Shown here one piece after another: positions 35,029-43,205 of a stretch of 64,000 nt of DNA. The position numbers and the translations under genes were made by a program. Location of the stretch: assembly GCA_900696515.1 (NCBI GenBank), contig CAADGK010000016.1, positions 1 through 64,000 on the forward strand, in the 5' to 3' direction. Under the pieces are notes generated by a model. It had not been told where the DNA came from, made no database searches, and worked only from the letters and a program-made list of their open reading frames with translations. This DNA is from an uncultured Nitrosospira sp. GTDB lineage: Bacteria; Nitrospirota; Nitrospiria; Nitrospirales; Nitrospiraceae. The first letter of the stretch is position 1, and each line of letters opens with the position of its first letter.

Positions 35029-35311
35029 GAGACGCTCCTATCCCAGATCGAGTGCGATTACAGGTCTGTCGCTGTTCCACCATGTTTGACCTATCCCACC
35101 CAATCCCGATCATTCAGCGAAACATTGCCCCTCTCCTTCACTTCTTCTGTCGCATCGACCGTCGCCGTCGCGGAGATACCCGTGACATGCTCCCGCTACG
35201 AAAACGGACGGAAGCCGTTGCAGTCTAACATGAGCCCCCGTTTCTCTCACCTTGACAAAGCTTAAAACCGGGTGCTACCACCGTGTCATGGTGGGAGCTG
35301 ACCGTCATTCT

Positions 35312-36064
35312 ATGACTCACGATCCGCACACTCCGGCAAAGGTAGTCTCAACCTGGTCGGGCCAGGCGCGAGAAGATGCCGTCCAACGGATGTTCACCTC
35401 CATTGCCGGAGCCTACGACCTGAATAACACGCTCTTGAGTTTCGGGCTCCATTACTACTGGAAGAAGATTACCGCCTCCTACATTACTCCGGTCGGTCGA
35501 GGAACCGCCCTTGATGTGGGATCAGGCACAGCCGACCTTGCACTCCTGATCGAATCTCGAATGGGTCCGAAAGGCCGCGTGATCGCCTCGGATCTGAACC
35601 ATGCCATGCTCGCGGAAGGCCTCAAGAAGGTCGGCGACAAAGGCCTCGGCGACAAAATCACCTGCCTGCAGGCCAGTGCGGAACATCTCGGATTCAGTGA
35701 CAATACCTTCGATGCGGTCACGACCGGGTTCTGCATGCGGAACGTCGGGGATCTGCCGCAAGCCGTACGGGAAATTCGCCGGGTGATGAAGCCGGGGGGG
35801 CGCTTCGTGTGCCTGGAGTTCTCTCGCCCGATCTTCGGCTGGTTGAGAACGCTCTACGATTGGTATTCGTTCAAACTCTTGCCCTTCATCGGCACGATCG
35901 TCGCCCGTGACCGTACCGGCGTTTATGAATACCTTCCTGCATCGATCCGGACGTTTCCTGACCAAGAACGGTTGTGCCAGATCCTCCGCGATGCCGGATT
36001 TCGCCAAGTCTCGTACAAGAACCTCAGCGGCGGCATCGTCGCGATACACGTCGCAACGAAATAA
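35312..36064 (+). CDS. ubiE: Ubiquinone/menaquinone biosynthesis C-methyltransferase
   Basis: UbiE/MenG methylates demethylmenaquinone (or the ubiquinone precursor) using S-adenosylmethionine. The product, about 250 residues, has FTSIAGAYDLNNTLLSFGLHYYWKK (family motif near the start), the SAM-binding LDVGSGTADLALLI, ITCLQASAEHLGF, FDAVTTGFCMRNVGD and the C-terminal GGIVAIHVA. ATG 35312 is chosen, with GGGAG 14 bp upstream; ATG 35288 is an alternative. The TTG further upstream is part of TTGACA, a probable -35 box. Menaquinone use would suit a Nitrospira-type respiratory chain. Confidence 0.92.
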   Translation: MTHDPHTPAKVVSTWSGQAREDAVQRMFTSIAGAYDLNNTLLSFGLHYYWKKITASYITPVGRGTALDVGSGTADLALLIESRMGPKGRVIASDLNHAMLAEGLKKVGDKGLGDKITCLQASAEHLGFSDNTFDAVTTGFCMRNVGDLPQAVREIRRVMKPGGRFVCLEFSRPIFGWLRTLYDWYSFKLLPFIGTIVARDRTGVYEYLPASIRTFPDQERLCQILRDAGFRQVSYKNLSGGIVAIHVATK

Positions 36065-36159: not shown

Positions 36160-37785
36160 ATGAATTCAATCCTCTATATTTTTCTCCCCTGCAAGAAGGT
36201 TTATCCGATCGGGATCACCTACTTGGCGGACTTCATCCATCGGCGGAAGCCGGAGGTTCGGCAGCGCATCCTCGATCTCTCGTTGTTTCCGATCAACCAG
36301 CGCAGCCAAGCCATCCGTGACGCCGCGACGGAGTTCAAGCCGGACCTGGTCTGCTTTTCATGGCGCGACATCCAAATTTTTTCGCCGCATGAAGGCGACT
36401 CCTCGCTGGAACATGCCTTCAACTTCTATTTCGCCAGCAACCCGATCAAGCGCGTCGTCGCTTCGTTCGCGGGCATCAAACAGCTCTACCGCTACTACAG
36501 CCATATCTATACGATTCTGTCGTATCCGACACTGATTCGCAAAGAATTCCCGAAGGCTCAGATCATGATCGGCGGCGGGGCATTCACCGCGTTTGCCGAT
36601 CAACTGATCGAGAAGCTCCCGGAAGGCACGATCGGTATCCTGGGCGAAGGGGAAGATGCCATCCTCAAGCTCCTCGAAGGACGTTCGATCGACGACGAAC
36701 GCTATATCATCAAAGAAGGCGGACGGATCCGAAAGGGCTCCCATGGTTCGCCGGCGCTACTCGACGCCCCGGCCGTAGACCTGCCCTATCTGACCTCGAT
36801 CTTCCCACAATGGCGGGAATACCAAGGTGAATCAATTGGGGTGCAGTCGAAACGGGGCTGCCCCTATGATTGTGCCTTCTGTCTCTATCCCTACATTGAG
36901 GGTAAACGCGTGCGGTACCGACCAGCTGAAATGGTCGTGAAAGACATCTCCCAACATTATCATCAGTGGGGGACCCGTCGCTTTTGGTTTACCGATGCCC
37001 AATTCATTACGGGGAAGGAAGCCTATCCGCAATGTACGGAGATCATGGAGCGCATCATCAGCGAGAAGCTGGAAATCGAGTGGTCCGGCTATATCCGCAC
37101 CTCCTTGATCACGCCGGACTTCGCCAAGTTGATGGTTCGTTCCGGCGTGGGCGATCTGGAAGTCGCCATCACCTCCGGCTCGCAGGACGTACTGAACAAT
37201 CTCCACATGGGGTTCAAGCTGGAACGGCTCTATGACGGCTGTCGTTACCTGGCGGAGGCCGGGTTCAAGGGTAAGGTGATCCTCAACTATTCATTGAACA
37301 GCCCCAAGGAGACGGAGGAAACCCTGCTTCAGAGCGTCGAATCCTATAAAGTGGTGGCCTCGATTCTCGGCGAAGAACGAGTCTTCCCCTTGATGTTTTT
37401 CTTGGGCATCCAGCCCAACACCGACCTTGAACAGCGCCTATTGGAAGAGGGGTACCTGTCGGCCGGCTACAACCCTTTGATGTTGACGCCGACCAGTATC
37501 CGAAAGCTCCTCTATAATCCGGCTCCATTGAATTCATTCATCGCCAAAGCCTGCCTGCGTGCCTGGGAACGAAAGCAAGGAAGTCGTGATCCTCGCAAAT
37601 GGACGGGGTCCCTCTCGCAGACGGCTGACCAGTCAACCGCCTATGCGGATACAAACTTGAGCAAGGGGATTGAAGGCAATTCGGGACGAGATGCCCTCCT
37701 TTCCCTCGAAGAGATCCTTCGTTCCCGTCGACCGGTATCAGCCCCTTCCCAGACAGCTGACCCACGGGCAAGTTCCGTCGGTTAG
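36160..37785 (+). CDS. B12-binding-type radical SAM protein (BchE/MiaB-like class B architecture)
   Basis: A 541-residue protein. Residues about 1-180 resemble the cobalamin-binding Rossmann domain (YLADFIHRRKPEVR, FKPDLVCFSWRDIQ, IMIGGGAFTAFADQLIEKLP and ILGEGEDAILKLLEG) but lack the DxHxxG cobalt ligand, so cofactor binding is uncertain. The radical SAM core has CPYDCAFC with Cys234, 238 and 241 and continues to about 440. The C-terminal 80 residues are polar and poorly conserved in type. BchE, an anaerobic ring cyclase of chlorophyll synthesis, shares this layout. The substrate is unknown. It heads a cluster with two PCP_red-domain proteins. Confidence 0.84.
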   Translation: MNSILYIFLPCKKVYPIGITYLADFIHRRKPEVRQRILDLSLFPINQRSQAIRDAATEFKPDLVCFSWRDIQIFSPHEGDSSLEHAFNFYFASNPIKRVVASFAGIKQLYRYYSHIYTILSYPTLIRKEFPKAQIMIGGGAFTAFADQLIEKLPEGTIGILGEGEDAILKLLEGRSIDDERYIIKEGGRIRKGSHGSPALLDAPAVDLPYLTSIFPQWREYQGESIGVQSKRGCPYDCAFCLYPYIEGKRVRYRPAEMVVKDISQHYHQWGTRRFWFTDAQFITGKEAYPQCTEIMERIISEKLEIEWSGYIRTSLITPDFAKLMVRSGVGDLEVAITSGSQDVLNNLHMGFKLERLYDGCRYLAEAGFKGKVILNYSLNSPKETEETLLQSVESYKVVASILGEERVFPLMFFLGIQPNTDLEQRLLEEGYLSAGYNPLMLTPTSIRKLLYNPAPLNSFIAKACLRAWERKQGSRDPRKWTGSLSQTADQSTAYADTNLSKGIEGNSGRDALLSLEEILRSRRPVSAPSQTADPRASSVG

Positions 37786-37862
37786 CTTCGTCATTGGTCA
37801 TGAGTCAATGGTTACGAGACAGGCTGACCGCCTTACCGATGACGAGTGCCTATTGACTGCTC
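37786..37862. repeat. Worn inverted heptamer arrays after the B12-type radical SAM gene
   Basis: The left arm (37786-37816, CGTCATTGGTCATGAGTCAATGG) and a weaker right arm (about 37834-37860, CGATGACGAGTGCCTATTGAC) pair imperfectly. This copy is more decayed than the others and is not adjacent to a start codon. Confidence 0.55.
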
Positions 37863-37977
37863 CGCGTCTTGCAATCCAGTTTAAGCCGATGCTATCATCC
37901 CGCTTCTCCAGAGGCTGGGGCAGCGCTTCAATCATCTGGTTTTTCAGGCCATTGTGACGCTGAACCTCTGTTAACTC

Positions 37978-37994
37978 GCGCCTTAAGGAGGCGC
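37978..37994 (+). promoter_or_regulatory. Hairpin that covers the ribosome-binding site of the Usp/PCP_red gene
   Basis: GCGCCT (37978-37983) and AGGCGC (37989-37994) pair around TAAGG. The strong Shine-Dalgarno AAGGAGG (37985-37991) lies in the loop and 3' stem, 7 bp before the ATG. This could limit translation until the stem opens. The suggestion rests only on the sequence. Confidence 0.4.
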
Positions 37995-37998
37995 CTCA

Positions 37999-40065
37999 AT
38001 GTATAAGACGATCTATATTCCGGTCGATAATTCCGACCATTCCAATACAGCAGTTGATATGGGTGTCCACCTGGCAAAAACTTTCGGCTCCAAAATTGTG
38101 GGAAGCCATGTCTATGCCGCGAAAATGCACGACAAGCGCTTCAAACAAATGGAAGCCGGTTTGCCGGAAGAGTATCACGATGAAACGGAGCTTGACCGCC
38201 AACGTCAAATCCATGATTCGCTGATCACGCGCGGCCTCCAAATCATCACCGACTCCTATCTGGATTACGTCGACAAGAAGTGCAACGAGGCCAATCTGCC
38301 GATCGAACGGCGATCGCTTGAGGGACGGAACTGGAAGGTCTTGTCCGAAGATATCAATACCAACGGCTACGATCTCGTGATCATGGGCGCCTTGGGCGTC
38401 GGTGCCGTCAAGGACAGCGTGATCGGAAGCAACACGGAACGTGTCGTTCGCCGTGTTCGCAACTCCGATATGCTGATCATCAAGAACACCCAGCCGATCA
38501 CAGGCGGCAAGATCGTCGTGGCCGTGGACGGAAGTCCCTATTCGTTCGGTGGCCTGATGACCGGGCTTGCGCTCGGGAAAGCCCTCAATATTCCGGTTGA
38601 GGCCATATCGGCGTTCGACCCCTACTTCCACTACGCCGCCTTCCACAGTATTTCCGGGGTGCTCAACGAAGAAGCGGGAAAAGTCTTCCGGTTCAAGGAG
38701 CAGGAAAAACTCCACGAGGAAATCATCGACAGCGGCTTGGCCAAGATCTATCAATCGCATCTGGACATCTCCCGGGAAATTGCGCAAGCCGAACAGACCG
38801 ACCTCAAAACCACGCTCCTTGACGGAAAAGCATTTGAAAAGATCATTCAGTACGTCCGCAAGGATGTCCCGGCCCTGCTGATCGTCGGCCGTATTGGTGT
38901 CCACAGCGACGAGGACATGGACGTCGGCAGCAACACCGAGAACTTGTTGCGCAGTGCGCCCTGTAACGTGCTCATCTCCAACCGCAAGTATGTTCCCCCG
39001 ATCGATACCCAGGCTGAGTACACCATCGCCTGGACCGAAGAGGCGTTGCGGCGGATGGAAAAGATTCCCGTCTTTGCTCGCGGCGTGGCGAAAACAGCAA
39101 TCCATCGGTATGCCATCGAGAAAGGTCATACCATTATCAGCAACACGGTGGTCGATGCCGCAGTGGGACACATTCTTCCGAAAGGTGCCATGGATGCCAT
39201 GCGGGCGCTTGGCGGAAGCTTGGATGCGGCGGGGATTGATCGCGACCGGATGCAGGCCGACGAAGGCGTGACAAAAGACCTCATGGGTCCGACCTTGAGC
39301 GGCATCATGACTCAGATCGTGGAAGAGAAGCCGAAGGAAATCAGCGCATCGACGCAGGCCTACCTTGACCGTATGGCACAGACCTATTTCGTCTGTGACG
39401 GGTGCGGGTATATCGGGAAAGGGGATACGCCGGTCAAATGCCCCGTGTGCAGTGCAGATGGAACCAAATTCAAGCAGGTGGATAAGAAGATTTTCGAAGT
39501 GGCGGCCACATCGGAAGGTGAACTGGAAACGGACGTGGCCTACGACGATGTGCCGATGCAATGGACCAAGGACGCGAAAGAGGCGATCCGTGCCGTCCCG
39601 GCCGGCTTCCAACGCAGACGGGCCAAGGCGAGGATTGAAAAGACCGCGCGGAAATTGGGGATGACGACCATCACGCTTGAATATGCGGCCCCGATGATCA
39701 AAGAAGCGGCATCGGAAGACTACACCCCGATTTTCTCCAATAAAGGCACTGGTACCGCCCCGGCAGCGGAAGGGATGCTGACTGCGGCCAATGGGAATGG
39801 AACGAACGGCCATGCTGAAAGCGCGTCGCCCTATACCTGGACGGACGAGGCACAGGCCAGATTGGATCGGGCGCCGGAAGGTTTCATGCGCGACTGCACC
39901 AAAGCTCTCATTCTCAAGCATGCCGAGAAAATCGGCGCGACCGTGATCACGCTTGAGGTCGCAAACGAGGGTATCGAACAGGCAAAGGGCTATATGGCGG
40001 AAGCGATGAAGACCGGCAACCTCAAGGATATGATCGCTGATCTCACCGGCAAGTCTTCGACTTGA
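37999..40065 (+). CDS. Fusion of two universal-stress domains, a rubredoxin-like zinc/iron ribbon and three PCP_red domains
   Basis: A 688-residue soluble protein with an unusual layout. Residues 1-170 and about 172-330 are two UspA-type nucleotide-binding domains (GALGVGAVKDSVIGSNTERV; IVVAVDGSPYSFGG; DVGSNTENLLRSAPCNVLI). Three copies of the PCP_red domain (C-terminal domain of light-independent protochlorophyllide reductase subunit B) lie at about 342-392, 518-570 and 611-665, each opening with a WT/WTxxA motif and a basic helix. Between the first and second is a ribbon with two CxxC pairs (VCDGCGY and CPVCSADG), residues about 465-490. The next gene also ends in a PCP_red domain. Function unknown; redox or tetrapyrrole handling is an inference. 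Confidence 0.85.
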   Translation: MYKTIYIPVDNSDHSNTAVDMGVHLAKTFGSKIVGSHVYAAKMHDKRFKQMEAGLPEEYHDETELDRQRQIHDSLITRGLQIITDSYLDYVDKKCNEANLPIERRSLEGRNWKVLSEDINTNGYDLVIMGALGVGAVKDSVIGSNTERVVRRVRNSDMLIIKNTQPITGGKIVVAVDGSPYSFGGLMTGLALGKALNIPVEAISAFDPYFHYAAFHSISGVLNEEAGKVFRFKEQEKLHEEIIDSGLAKIYQSHLDISREIAQAEQTDLKTTLLDGKAFEKIIQYVRKDVPALLIVGRIGVHSDEDMDVGSNTENLLRSAPCNVLISNRKYVPPIDTQAEYTIAWTEEALRRMEKIPVFARGVAKTAIHRYAIEKGHTIISNTVVDAAVGHILPKGAMDAMRALGGSLDAAGIDRDRMQADEGVTKDLMGPTLSGIMTQIVEEKPKEISASTQAYLDRMAQTYFVCDGCGYIGKGDTPVKCPVCSADGTKFKQVDKKIFEVAATSEGELETDVAYDDVPMQWTKDAKEAIRAVPAGFQRRRAKARIEKTARKLGMTTITLEYAAPMIKEAASEDYTPIFSNKGTGTAPAAEGMLTAANGNGTNGHAESASPYTWTDEAQARLDRAPEGFMRDCTKALILKHAEKIGATVITLEVANEGIEQAKGYMAEAMKTGNLKDMIADLTGKSST

Positions 40066-40066
40066 G

Positions 40067-40153
40067 TTTTGAGTTGTGAATGTTGAGTTGTGAGTTGCGG
40101 CAGCTCTCCTAAGGGTCCGAACCAAACACTAAAGACTCATCACTCAAGACTGT
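40067..40153. repeat. Inverted heptamer arrays of the TTGTGAR type between the fusion gene and the radical SAM gene
   Basis: The left arm (about 40067-40100) is built of TTGTGAA/TGTTGAG/TTGTGAG units. The right arm (about 40121-40153) is CACTAAAGACTCATCACTC-like and complementary. The unit sequence is distinct from the TGGTCAT class, while the layout and position between stop and start are the same. Confidence 0.72.
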
Positions 40154-40154
40154 T

Positions 40155-41558
40155 ATGGGTAAATCTCTCCCCATCTTCAACGGCTCGTCGCTGTCGGGTG
40201 CTTTCGGATCGCTTCCGCAGCAAATTTCACAGTTCTTCACCCCGACTCCAAAGGGAGACGGACCGTTCGATGGCCGGACTGTGGACGACTTCAAACCCTA
40301 CCTTGTCGCGCTCAACCTGACCAAGCGCTGTAACCTCAAGTGCGATCATTGTTATCTCGATGCCACGACAAAAGCCGCAGGCGGCGATGACGAACTCTCC
40401 ACCGAAGAATGCTACCGATTGATCGATCAGATTGCCCAGGTCAACAAGGGGTGCCTCCTGGTGATTACCGGCGGAGAACCGCTGGTCCGCCCCGACATTC
40501 TTGACATCGCACGCTACGCCGTGAAGCTCGGTTTCATGGTGGTCTTTGGGACCAACGGCATGCTGATCGATGACCGGATGGCCAAGACCCTTGTTGAAAT
40601 CGGTGTGATGGGTGTTGGAATCAGCATCGATTCGCTGGACGCCGCCAAGCATAATTCCTTTCGTGGCGTCCCCGGCGCCTGGGAAGCCGCGGTGGCGGGG
40701 ATTGAAGCAAGCAAGCGAAACGGCCTGCAGTTCCAAGTCCATTTCAGCGCACAGCCGATGAATTACAAGGAACTGCCGGAAGTCATCACCTGGGCCCATG
40801 AACTTGGAGCCCGCGTGCTCAACGTTTTCTTCATGGTCTGCACGGGTCGAGGTGAAGAACTGACGGATATTACTCCGGCTCAGTACGAAGAGGTACTTGG
40901 CTATCTGATTGACTGCCAGGATAGTTACAAAGGCATGCTGATCCGAGCCCGTTGTGCCCCACACTTTAAACGGCTGGCCTACGAGAAAGATCCAAACTCT
41001 CCGATCACGAAGGCGACCGGGTACATGGGAGGCGGATGCCTCGCCGGTACGAACTATGCCCGAGTCACACCGAACGGCGAGCTCACCCCTTGTCCCTACA
41101 TGCCGCTGTCCGCGGGGAACTTGCGTCAGCATAGTTTTGTCGATCTCTGGGAACGCTCGGATGTCTTCAACTCGTTCCGCTATCCGCAGCTGAAGGGAAA
41201 ATGCGGGGACTGTGAATACAGCGACATCTGCGGCGGCTGCCGTGCACGACCCTATGTCGACCATGGAGACTGGCTGGACGAGGACCAGTGGTGTCTATAC
41301 GAGCCGAAGGGCGGCGAAAAGATCAAGGTGGCATTCAACGTCGCAGAAGAGACCGATGTCACGTGGGACGAAGCCTCTGCACTCAGACTGAGTCGGATCC
41401 CCTATTTCCTTCGTGCCATGGTGAAAAAGGGCGTGGAAAAGCACGCCCGTGAAAACAATATCTCGATGATTACGGTCGAACTGATGGAGGAATTGAGGAA
41501 AAAGCGGTTCGGCAACGACGCGCCGGTGTTCAATTTTGACGTAAAGGGCAAGGGGTAA
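40155..41558 (+). CDS. Radical SAM/SPASM protein with C-terminal PCP_red domain (NirJ/AhbC/PqqE-like)
   Basis: A 467-residue protein. Cys59, 63 and 66 (CNLKCDHC) bind the radical SAM cluster, with GGEPLVRPD following. A SPASM-type region holds the auxiliary-cluster cysteines (GGGCLAG..., LTPCPYMPLSAGN, CGDCEYSDICGGCRA and a later WCLYEP). Residues about 395-455 are a PCP_red domain (WDEASALRLSRIPYFLRAMV, VEKHAREN). The closest well-known relatives by motif are NirJ and AhbC/AhbD of haem d1 and alternative haem synthesis, and PqqE-type peptide enzymes. The PCP_red tail links it to the upstream fusion protein and argues for a tetrapyrrole substrate, as an inference. Confidence 0.85.
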   Translation: MGKSLPIFNGSSLSGAFGSLPQQISQFFTPTPKGDGPFDGRTVDDFKPYLVALNLTKRCNLKCDHCYLDATTKAAGGDDELSTEECYRLIDQIAQVNKGCLLVITGGEPLVRPDILDIARYAVKLGFMVVFGTNGMLIDDRMAKTLVEIGVMGVGISIDSLDAAKHNSFRGVPGAWEAAVAGIEASKRNGLQFQVHFSAQPMNYKELPEVITWAHELGARVLNVFFMVCTGRGEELTDITPAQYEEVLGYLIDCQDSYKGMLIRARCAPHFKRLAYEKDPNSPITKATGYMGGGCLAGTNYARVTPNGELTPCPYMPLSAGNLRQHSFVDLWERSDVFNSFRYPQLKGKCGDCEYSDICGGCRARPYVDHGDWLDEDQWCLYEPKGGEKIKVAFNVAEETDVTWDEASALRLSRIPYFLRAMVKKGVEKHARENNISMITVELMEELRKKRFGNDAPVFNFDVKGKG

Positions 41559-41624
41559 GGCGTCAGGGGTGAATTGCCGAGGACCAGCTTTTAAGCAACC
41601 CCTCACCCCTTACAACTCACTCCT
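41548..41624. repeat. Inverted heptamer arrays overlapping the radical SAM stop codon
   Basis: The left arm (41548-41576, AAGGGGTAAGGCGTCAGGGGTGA) supplies the last codons and TAA stop of the radical SAM gene. The right arm (41600-41624, CCCCTCACCCCTTACAACTC) is complementary. The loop is about 24 bp. Units are of the GGGTAAG/GGGTGAA type, close to those inside the HerA-like gene. Confidence 0.74.
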
Positions 41625-41638
41625 TGCTGGTTCTCACG

Positions 41639-42148
41639 ATGGATACTCTTGAAAGCATTGCGACCGACCTCAATATCCTGATTCCGATCATCAATCATTG
41701 GTTTCATCTGCTCTCGGCGATCATTTGGATCGGCGGTCTCGCGTTTCTCGTCATGGCGGTCACCCCGGGGCTGGAGAAAGCCGTTCCCAAGGAGCAGGTC
41801 AAACCCATCACGGATATTTTTTATCGGCACTATAAAAAAATCGCCGGCATTTTACTCGTCGTCCTGCTGTTCACCGGCGGCGTGAATCTCCACTACGTCA
41901 ATCAGGTCATTACCTCACAAACCGGAAACGGAGTCCAGCACCATTCCAAGTATCTGATGGTCTTCATGATCAAACTGCTGCTCGTGCTGGGGCTTCTGAC
42001 GCTGTTTCTCTACACCGTTATCTTCAAGTCGGATGATGAGGCAGAAGAGGGAGAGTCCTATGAGGCCATTCCCTTCCAGCGCGCGGCCCTCTGGATGGGA
42101 TTTTTCATTATTCTGTGCGCCGCCGCCATGAAACATCTGCACCAGTAG
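41639..42148 (+). CDS. CopD/HemJ-like four-helix membrane protein
   Basis: A 169-residue inner-membrane protein with four or five hydrophobic helices. The first helix NHWFHLLSAIIWIGGLAFLVM has the His-rich start seen in CopD-domain and HemJ-type proteins; other histidines are at the third helix (VQHHSKYLMVFMIK, with a conserved-type Lys) and at the C-terminus (MKHLHQ). HemJ is a protoporphyrinogen oxidase that binds haem. Whether this protein is HemJ-like in function or a copper-related protein cannot be decided. Its place after two PCP_red genes makes haem chemistry plausible. ATG 41639 is preferred to an upstream TTG. Confidence 0.75.
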   Translation: MDTLESIATDLNILIPIINHWFHLLSAIIWIGGLAFLVMAVTPGLEKAVPKEQVKPITDIFYRHYKKIAGILLVVLLFTGGVNLHYVNQVITSQTGNGVQHHSKYLMVFMIKLLLVLGLLTLFLYTVIFKSDDEAEEGESYEAIPFQRAALWMGFFIILCAAAMKHLHQ

Positions 42149-42437: not shown

Positions 42438-43205
42438 TCACTTGGATCGGTTGAGCCCGAGCACGCGATTGAAGACGGTGGCGAAGCCGAAATAGCCGAA
42501 GGAATCTTTCAGGTTCGAATAGAGCCGCTTGACGGTCCCCATCTCAGGATTGGTGACGTACTCCATCGTCAGCGCAATCCGCTCTTCGCCTTCGCCAAGA
42601 GGCGTGACCGCGTGCCAGAGCTTATCCCCGTTGAAAATCACCATATCCCCGGGTTCGGTGATCAACTCAAGATGACGGGGCTGTTTCGTCGGATGATCTT
42701 TGAAAAGCTCACAGACGAGCTTGCATTGAGTTGATCGATCCACCAAGCCCATGAGAATGGTATAGCGCGCACCGTTGTAATAGGACGTATCGTAATGGAA
42801 ACCGATATGGTCACCCGGCTCCGTATAGTAGTAGAGGGCGCAGGAATGAGGGTCGTTGTCCGGGCAGAACATCAGTTTCGCCTGCACGAGACGATCTAAG
42901 AATCCTCTGAACGAGTCGGCACGATATAATTCAAGAAAGCGCGGAGCTTTTTCCTGCACCGTGTAGTAGCTGACACTCCCGCCCTTCTTATGGCCGGGGA
43001 TGTAATTACGATTCAGCTCGGATTTGACGGCCTGGGCTTGAGGGACGAAGACCTCTTCGACAAAGGCACGGGGCAGAAATTGCTTGATGACCAAAAACTC
43101 GTTTTGCTCCCAATACTCCTGGTGGAGACGGTCGAAATCTAACCGCGCCACCGCTTGATCGACCGCTTCTTCTATGCTGTTCGCGAGATTTGGCACCTGT
43201 CTCAA
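42438..43205 (-). CDS. 2-oxoglutarate/Fe(II)-dependent oxygenase-like protein (phytanoyl/prolyl hydroxylase fold)
   Basis: A 255-residue protein. HIGFHYDTSYYNGARYTILMGL supplies the HxD metal motif (His-Tyr-Asp), and KLWHAVTPLGEGEERIALTMEYV supplies the distal His and the Arg that holds 2-oxoglutarate, all on a double-stranded beta-helix. The N-terminal 70 residues are helical. The substrate is unknown. The start is uncertain: TTG 43205 opens the frame and GTG 43196 is an alternative; neither has a strong ribosome site. A heptamer array lies immediately upstream. Confidence 0.8.
   Translation of the reverse strand: MRQVPNLANSIEEAVDQAVARLDFDRLHQEYWEQNEFLVIKQFLPRAFVEEVFVPQAQAVKSELNRNYIPGHKKGGSVSYYTVQEKAPRFLELYRADSFRGFLDRLVQAKLMFCPDNDPHSCALYYYTEPGDHIGFHYDTSYYNGARYTILMGLVDRSTQCKLVCELFKDHPTKQPRHLELITEPGDMVIFNGDKLWHAVTPLGEGEERIALTMEYVTNPEMGTVKRLYSNLKDSFGYFGFATVFNRVLGLNRSK

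Follow-up and report, generated by a model that had tools for sequence, protein, structure and literature searches.

Do four neighbouring genes with domains otherwise met in chlorophyll and haem synthesis act together on a tetrapyrrole? The question is raised by a Nitrospirota locus on contig CAADGK010000016.1, of which a stretch of 64,000 nucleotides (the window) was analysed. Four plus-strand open reading frames (ORFs) are present at 36160-42148, as a sequence-only reading of the window had reported before it ascribed them all to one tetrapyrrole-modifying system. Comparison with relatives gives another answer: the four genes, taken with mpqE upstream of them, form two conserved modules and not one system. 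The first gene (36160-37785), which encodes a B12-binding/radical S-adenosylmethionine (SAM) protein, very probably belongs to the methyl-plastoquinone pathway and, judged from its sequence and its genomic company, is probably a B12-dependent C-methylase of the plastoquinone-type ring. The other three genes are separate from it and, as a tentative best assignment from their sequences, may act on a tetrapyrrole in haem-protein metabolism. In the following, G, L and f numbers denote genomes, loci and families, and modules A and B are the two gene blocks of the locus.

35252..36064 (about; start codon unsure), plus strand: mpqE, UbiE-type C-methyltransferase of methyl-plastoquinone synthesis, module A (NCBIfam NF052510, 403 bits); upstream partner of the radical SAM gene in most of the phylum
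36160..37785, plus strand: B12-binding/radical SAM protein, slr0320-like, module A; proposed methyl-plastoquinone ring C-methylase (PF02310, PF04055; rSAM_slr0320; CPYDCAFC)
37786..37998, no strand: 213-base gap between the modules; proposed transcript boundary (promoter-like match at 37869-37898)
37999..40065, plus strand: Usp-Usp-PCP_red-rubredoxin-PCP_red-PCP_red fusion protein, module B (Pfam domains)
40155..41558, plus strand: radical SAM/SPASM enzyme of the NirJ2/AhbD class with C-terminal PCP_red, module B (TIGR04055, TIGR04545, PF08369)
41624..42148 (start probably 41639), plus strand: small multi-helix membrane protein with conserved histidines, DUF4149/CopD-like and not HemJ, module B (profile scores)

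The frequency of promoter-like matches, the one at 37869-37898 included, did not exceed that in shuffled sequence, and no RNA families were found in the window.

The locus holds two modules

Every family of the order, four in all, keeps mpqE with the radical SAM gene, and in relatives the three genes from the fusion protein to the CopD-like protein form a second block. The two modules adjoin in f1 and f2 only, so that all four genes are neighbours in no other family; f3 keeps the radical SAM gene with mpqE and has the module B genes together elsewhere, for example 365 kb off in G048. The mpqE and radical SAM frames overlap in f2 and are a few bases apart in most of f3, and the gap between the modules is about 84-213 bases at the loci where both adjoin.

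The same separation is found on a larger scale. In a survey of 296 Nitrospirota genomes, the radical SAM gene was present in 131 and mpqE in every one of these (131/131). The two lie on the same strand within 200 bases in 110 of the 131 genomes and within 1.5 kb in seven more (117 in total), and on different contigs in 14; this pairing spans several families and classes, at 43-60% identity. Module A is present in f7, f10, f13 and f21, where a close SPASM/PCP_red gene was not found, and the reverse, module B without module A, holds for f14, f18, f27 and others.

A single four-gene tetrapyrrole operon is rejected on the grounds of this synteny and of the separate distributions of the modules. 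The sequence-only reading had expected the four genes to co-occur in other genomes: they do so as neighbours in f1 and f2, and are split in f3, with modules standing alone in whole families. Its set had left out mpqE, which lies directly upstream of the first gene and is its constant partner.

The first gene product has a class B radical SAM layout and is related to Slr0320

The product of the first gene carries a B12-binding domain (PF02310, 36.1 bits, cut-off 32.1) followed by a Radical_SAM domain (PF04055, 57.4 bits) with the CxxxCxxC motif, which is the layout of class B (B12-dependent) radical SAM methylases. It had been taken for BchE-like; it belongs to the same superfamily as BchE without being a family match (TIGR02026, 43.8 bits against a cut-off of 481), and the nearest named family is rSAM_slr0320 (NF045585), with 447 bits over positions 2-483 of 511. 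Slr0320 of Synechocystis, the photosystem II high-light acclimation radical SAM protein that typifies this family, has the same B12-binding and radical SAM layout over nearly the full length, and the window protein is about 40% identical to the cyanobacterial members; both proteins occur in makers of plastoquinone-type quinones. The window protein differs from that family in its score, which stays below the cut-off of 775, in its pairing with mpqE and in its non-phototrophic host. Orthologues of the gene were found in 33 of the 34 cyanobacteria tested, at about 40% identity. Across 41 Nitrospirota and cyanobacterial proteins the cysteines C234, C238 and C241 of CPYDCAFC are conserved, and they are among 93 near-invariant positions common to both phyla. 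In plasmid records there was no match for the radical SAM protein or for the fusion protein, and distant radical SAM/SPASM proteins alone matched the SPASM protein; the search of the PDB returned general relatives alone.

The methyl-plastoquinone (mpq) pathway, MpqA-E, was reportedly set out by Elling et al. in 2025, and the upstream gene of the locus is MpqE by a curated profile (403 bits, cut-off 335). UbiE and MenG methylate the ring position that adjoins the prenyl chain, and MpqE is expected to do likewise. In N. inopinata and N. moscoviensis, methyl-plastoquinones are the sole quinones; they bear an extra methyl next to the isoprenoid chain, the other two methyls being as in plastoquinone (PMC12324825). 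If the chain-adjacent methyl is the product of MpqE, two plastoquinone-type methyls are therefore left without an assigned enzyme in the literature surveyed. In the wording by which a paper citing the pathway quotes the MpqA-E names, a B12/radical SAM protein is not among them (PMC12324825; PMC13386864). Radical SAM methylation of a respiratory quinone is likewise carried out by menaquinone methylases of the MqnK/MenK kind, which are of class C in the citation given by PMC8065906, whereas the window protein has a B12 domain. As for Slr0320 itself, electrons pass slowly from QA to QB in the Synechocystis mutant, and the authors of that study left a role in quinone methylation possible (PMC8065906).

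A candidate for the ring hydroxylase of the methyl-plastoquinone pathway is the single UbiH-like flavin hydroxylase of the window's own genome (C112:18623-19858; L201:9594-10865), which is found in nearly all members of the order.

The radical SAM gene was lost repeatedly and in three genomes replaced in place

Among the 84 f1 genomes with mpqE, an intact radical SAM gene is missing in six (G009, G018, G102, G174, G208 and G258), one of which, G174, is the cultured isolate N. japonica NJ1 with a closed genome (PMC5767232). Only a C-terminal remnant is left in G018 and G258. G174 has an internal deletion, on either side of which the first residues and a short piece of the C-terminus are left, and in G208 the gene is frameshifted and its N-terminus is missing. 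On a tree of mpqE and the fusion gene five changes are needed, three of them forced by well-supported branches. G314 was rejected as a further loser, the gaps in its gene being runs of N.

In G018, G102 and G258 a two-gene cassette, 91-97% alike between these genomes, has taken the place of the lost gene between mpqE and the fusion gene; it consists of a cyanobacterial-type SAM methyltransferase (MT18) and a UbiH-like flavin hydroxylase. N. japonica and G208 carry the cassette elsewhere in the genome. A full-length cassette hydroxylase (at least 849 bits) is present in exactly five losers, all but G009, and in none of 77 retainers (Fisher 2e-7, kinship not corrected for). In G003, which keeps the radical SAM gene, the cassette hydroxylase has internal deletions. 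The standard UbiH-like hydroxylase, present in nearly every member of the order, is about 45-66% identical to the cassette copy; G102, G174 and G258 show the cassette hydroxylase alone, so that in these genomes the cassette copy also replaced the standard one.

The replacement is of cyanobacterial kinship. The best 80 relatives of MT18 in GTDB genome contigs came from Nitrospira and Cyanobacteria only, with up to 86% identity across the phyla, and among them MT18 is 76-86% identical to proteins of many cyanobacteria. The Nitrospira MT18 proteins form one clade in the tree (support 98/93).

Two further arrangements were observed. In L123:6860-7888, from the metagenome-assembled genome RSF6, an ORF joining the first 48 or so residues of MpqE to MT18 stands where mpqE and the radical SAM gene would be expected; it is either a real deletion-fusion or an assembly error. 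G008 and G009 (L056, L047) are small Nitrospira genomes that have lost the radical SAM gene; G008 shows a piece of MT18 at a contig edge, and none was seen in G009.

The replacement lies beside B12-independent genes

As to the B12 INDEPENDENCE, MT18 adjoins MetE and/or NrdA-NrdB in G018, G174, G208, L102, L104, L116 and L117, and cobalamin riboswitches (111-125 bits) precede these NrdAB or MetE genes in G018, G174, G208, L102, L104 and L116. MT18 thus travels with B12-independent substitutes under B12 sensing, as expected if the gene that it replaced needs B12. One recently described Nitrospira is without complete B12 synthesis (PMC12542776).

The genes concerned amount to a portable B12-independence island in Nitrospira, made up of class I ribonucleotide reductase, MetE, MT18 and the UbiH-like hydroxylase, with riboswitches before NrdAB or MetE.

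L041:236-8430 and L055:18827-19825 (G018), L202 (N. japonica), L203 (G208): locations of the island

Proposed reaction and alternative explanations

Because of its pairing with mpqE, its kinship with Slr0320, its loss together with cassette replacement and the B12-independent neighbours of the replacement, the radical SAM gene is likely to encode a ring methylase. The reaction, the carbon methylated and the order of steps that we infer would be as follows. Like UbiE and MenG, MpqE would methylate the position adjacent to the prenyl chain, and the radical SAM enzyme would add one or both of the two methyls common to cyanobacterial plastoquinone. The 4Fe-4S cluster at CPYDCAFC would cleave SAM, the 5'-deoxyadenosyl radical would activate a ring carbon of the prenylated precursor and methylcobalamin in the N-terminal domain would donate the methyl. 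Such a radical route could precede the hydroxylation that makes the ring nucleophilic. In some lineages MT18, travelling with a second UbiH-like hydroxylase, would have taken over the step, and the exchange of two genes may be understood if the SAM methyltransferase needs the hydroquinone, so that a hydroxylase with another substrate presumably comes along, in this order of events.

A wider model can be drawn from this, which we regard as nearly balanced between right and wrong. A cobalamin radical SAM enzyme would be the plastoquinone-type ring C-methylase in Nitrospirota and, as Slr0320, in cyanobacteria, acting on an unactivated carbon before hydroxylation; B12 supply would thereby control which quinone enzyme is used, and several lineages would have freed themselves from this control by taking up a cyanobacterial methyltransferase and a hydroxylase together with riboswitch-controlled B12-independent genes.

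Several observations weigh against the methylase assignment. In normal light the slr0320 mutant shows no growth defect (PMC8065906), and cyanobacteria carry both the radical SAM enzyme and a methyltransferase of the replacement type. In G009 the radical SAM gene is lost and the cassette was not found. The association of cassette and loss comprises about three independent pairs on the tree, so that a sign test is without power. A further 20 genomes have MT18 and yet retain the radical SAM gene; in them MT18 stands alone, which rules out a simple anticorrelation between MT18 and the radical SAM gene, and only the pair of MT18 and hydroxylase tracks the loss, so that the lost step could be hydroxylation. 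Lastly, the assignment of MT18 to the Sll0418 type, the MPBQ/MSBQ ring methyltransferase of cyanobacterial plastoquinone and tocopherol synthesis, is a lead, drawn from a presumed close resemblance to Sll0418 and from the restriction of MT18 relatives to cyanobacteria and Nitrospira.

Hydroxylation of the quinone ring by the radical SAM enzyme itself, comparable to the water-derived oxygenation by BchE, is accordingly the first alternative to be weighed, with the UbiH-like cassette hydroxylase as the true replacement. It would account for the full-length cassette hydroxylase, rather than MT18 alone, marking the five losers, and BchE does stand in the same superfamily (43.8 bits). We nevertheless consider it unlikely: the order nearly always already has a UbiH-like hydroxylase related to the cassette copy, for which the cassette copy stands in in three of the losers (G102, G174 and G258), three ring methylations are required of which MpqE accounts for one, and the cassette holds a methyltransferase common to plastoquinone makers.

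It is improbable to a similar degree that the radical SAM gene and mpqE are mere neighbours and that the enzyme modifies another target, such as a lipid or a quinone-binding protein, which aerobes with high-potential quinones need. Adjacency is no proof of a shared pathway, and the loss of slr0320 in Synechocystis alters photosystem II function in a cell that survives (PMC8065906). However, the two genes remain adjacent across several families and several classes in which identity is 43-60%, they co-occur in all 131 genomes, and in the same slot the gene is replaced by a methyltransferase and a quinone-type hydroxylase. A ring methylase of methyl-plastoquinone synthesis is therefore still the preferred assignment for the first gene.

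Module B and possible links to haem

For the three genes of module B, the domain layout of the sequence-only reading was largely borne out: the Usp, PCP_red and SPASM domains score above their cut-offs, as do the B12-binding and Radical_SAM domains, and the rubredoxin-like stretch of the fusion protein falls just under (25.4 against 26.5 bits). The four PCP_red domains claimed for two proteins were confirmed by profile search (PF08369), all exceeding the gathering threshold of 32.5; three stand with two Usp domains in the fusion protein and one (50.4 bits) with Radical_SAM and SPASM domains in the SPASM enzyme. Whole-protein BchB profiles (cut-offs 490-912 bits) reach at most 67.6 bits, owing to the PCP_red domains alone. 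The SPASM enzyme had been called NirJ/AhbC-like; its radical SAM/SPASM core is that of NirJ2 and of the haem b synthase AhbD, and places it in this class, with scores (TIGR04055, 321 bits; TIGR04545, 316 bits) below the cut-offs of 500 for membership. It further differs from AhbD and NirJ2 by its extra PCP_red domain and its pairing with a Usp/rubredoxin/PCP_red protein. The membrane protein shares with HemJ its small size and its histidines, but it is not a member of that family as had been supposed (TIGR00701, 14.1 bits against 138). It scores better with CopD (NF033808, 36.1 bits, under the cut-off of 195; Pfam CopD is also below cut-off) and with Pfam DUF4149 (25.5 bits, marginally above the cut-off of 24.6), and its fold model is poor, with a mean predicted local distance difference test (pLDDT) score of 52.

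Taken by itself, module B might consist of an AhbD/NirJ-like enzyme that modifies side chains of an iron-porphyrin bound to PCP_red domains, a Usp/rubredoxin protein that serves as both carrier and electron donor, and a membrane partner, the CopD-like protein; we put this possibility forward with reserve. The Usp-PCP_red and SPASM-PCP_red genes stay neighbours far beyond Nitrospira, including Nitrospirota lineages without mpqE, and in G066 the SPASM protein itself bears three PCP_red domains; this linkage and domain fusion suggest one complex. The links to haem are weak: the gene after the SPASM gene in G066 encodes a protoporphyrinogen oxidase (291 bits, cut-off 98), in G217 and G197 the module lies next to cytochrome bd-like subunits, and the SPASM enzyme is the sole strong AhbD/NirJ-class protein in the window's genome. 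Its 316-321 bits, under the 500-bit AhbD and NirJ2 cut-offs, speak against this reading of module B. These same features (the NirJ2/AhbD-class enzyme, the PCP_red domains and the neighbours in G066, G217 and G197) would also favour one tetrapyrrole system of four genes, an explanation made very improbable by the parting of the first gene from the other three in f3, by whole families having one module without the other and by BchE and HemJ scores far under cut-off. The earlier interpretation is wrong for the first gene, which follows methyl-plastoquinone biosynthesis, and a tetrapyrrole role stays possible for the other three.

Other proteins were noted around module B and in related genomes. 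A 255-residue protein without an NCBIfam match adjoins it in the window (42438-43205, minus strand) and is kept beside it in f1. The window's genome encodes three more PCP_red proteins outside the window (L050:2939-3934, L050:17949-18671 and L052:18798-19289): one has four such domains and lies near HU and SppA genes, one starts with a zinc-ribbon-like stretch, and one has a DUF420 membrane protein and a bd-like oxidase cluster as neighbours. The SPASM/PCP_red gene of several Nitrospirota lineages from outside the order is followed by a protein of some 240 residues (L223:9540-10256, L224:5249-5968, L226:9560-10291 and L217:8173-8826); the L223 copy had no Pfam match.

Significance

Nitrospira are dominant nitrite oxidisers, and their quinone was identified only in 2025. 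If the proposed function is true, B12 radical chemistry would gain a new use in the methylation of a respiratory quinone, and this would give one reason for the dependence of nitrifiers on corrinoid suppliers. Slr0320, which is conserved in cyanobacteria and whose loss slows electron transfer on the acceptor side of photosystem II, would also be given a function. The natural losers, one of them cultured and with a closed genome, make this function directly testable.

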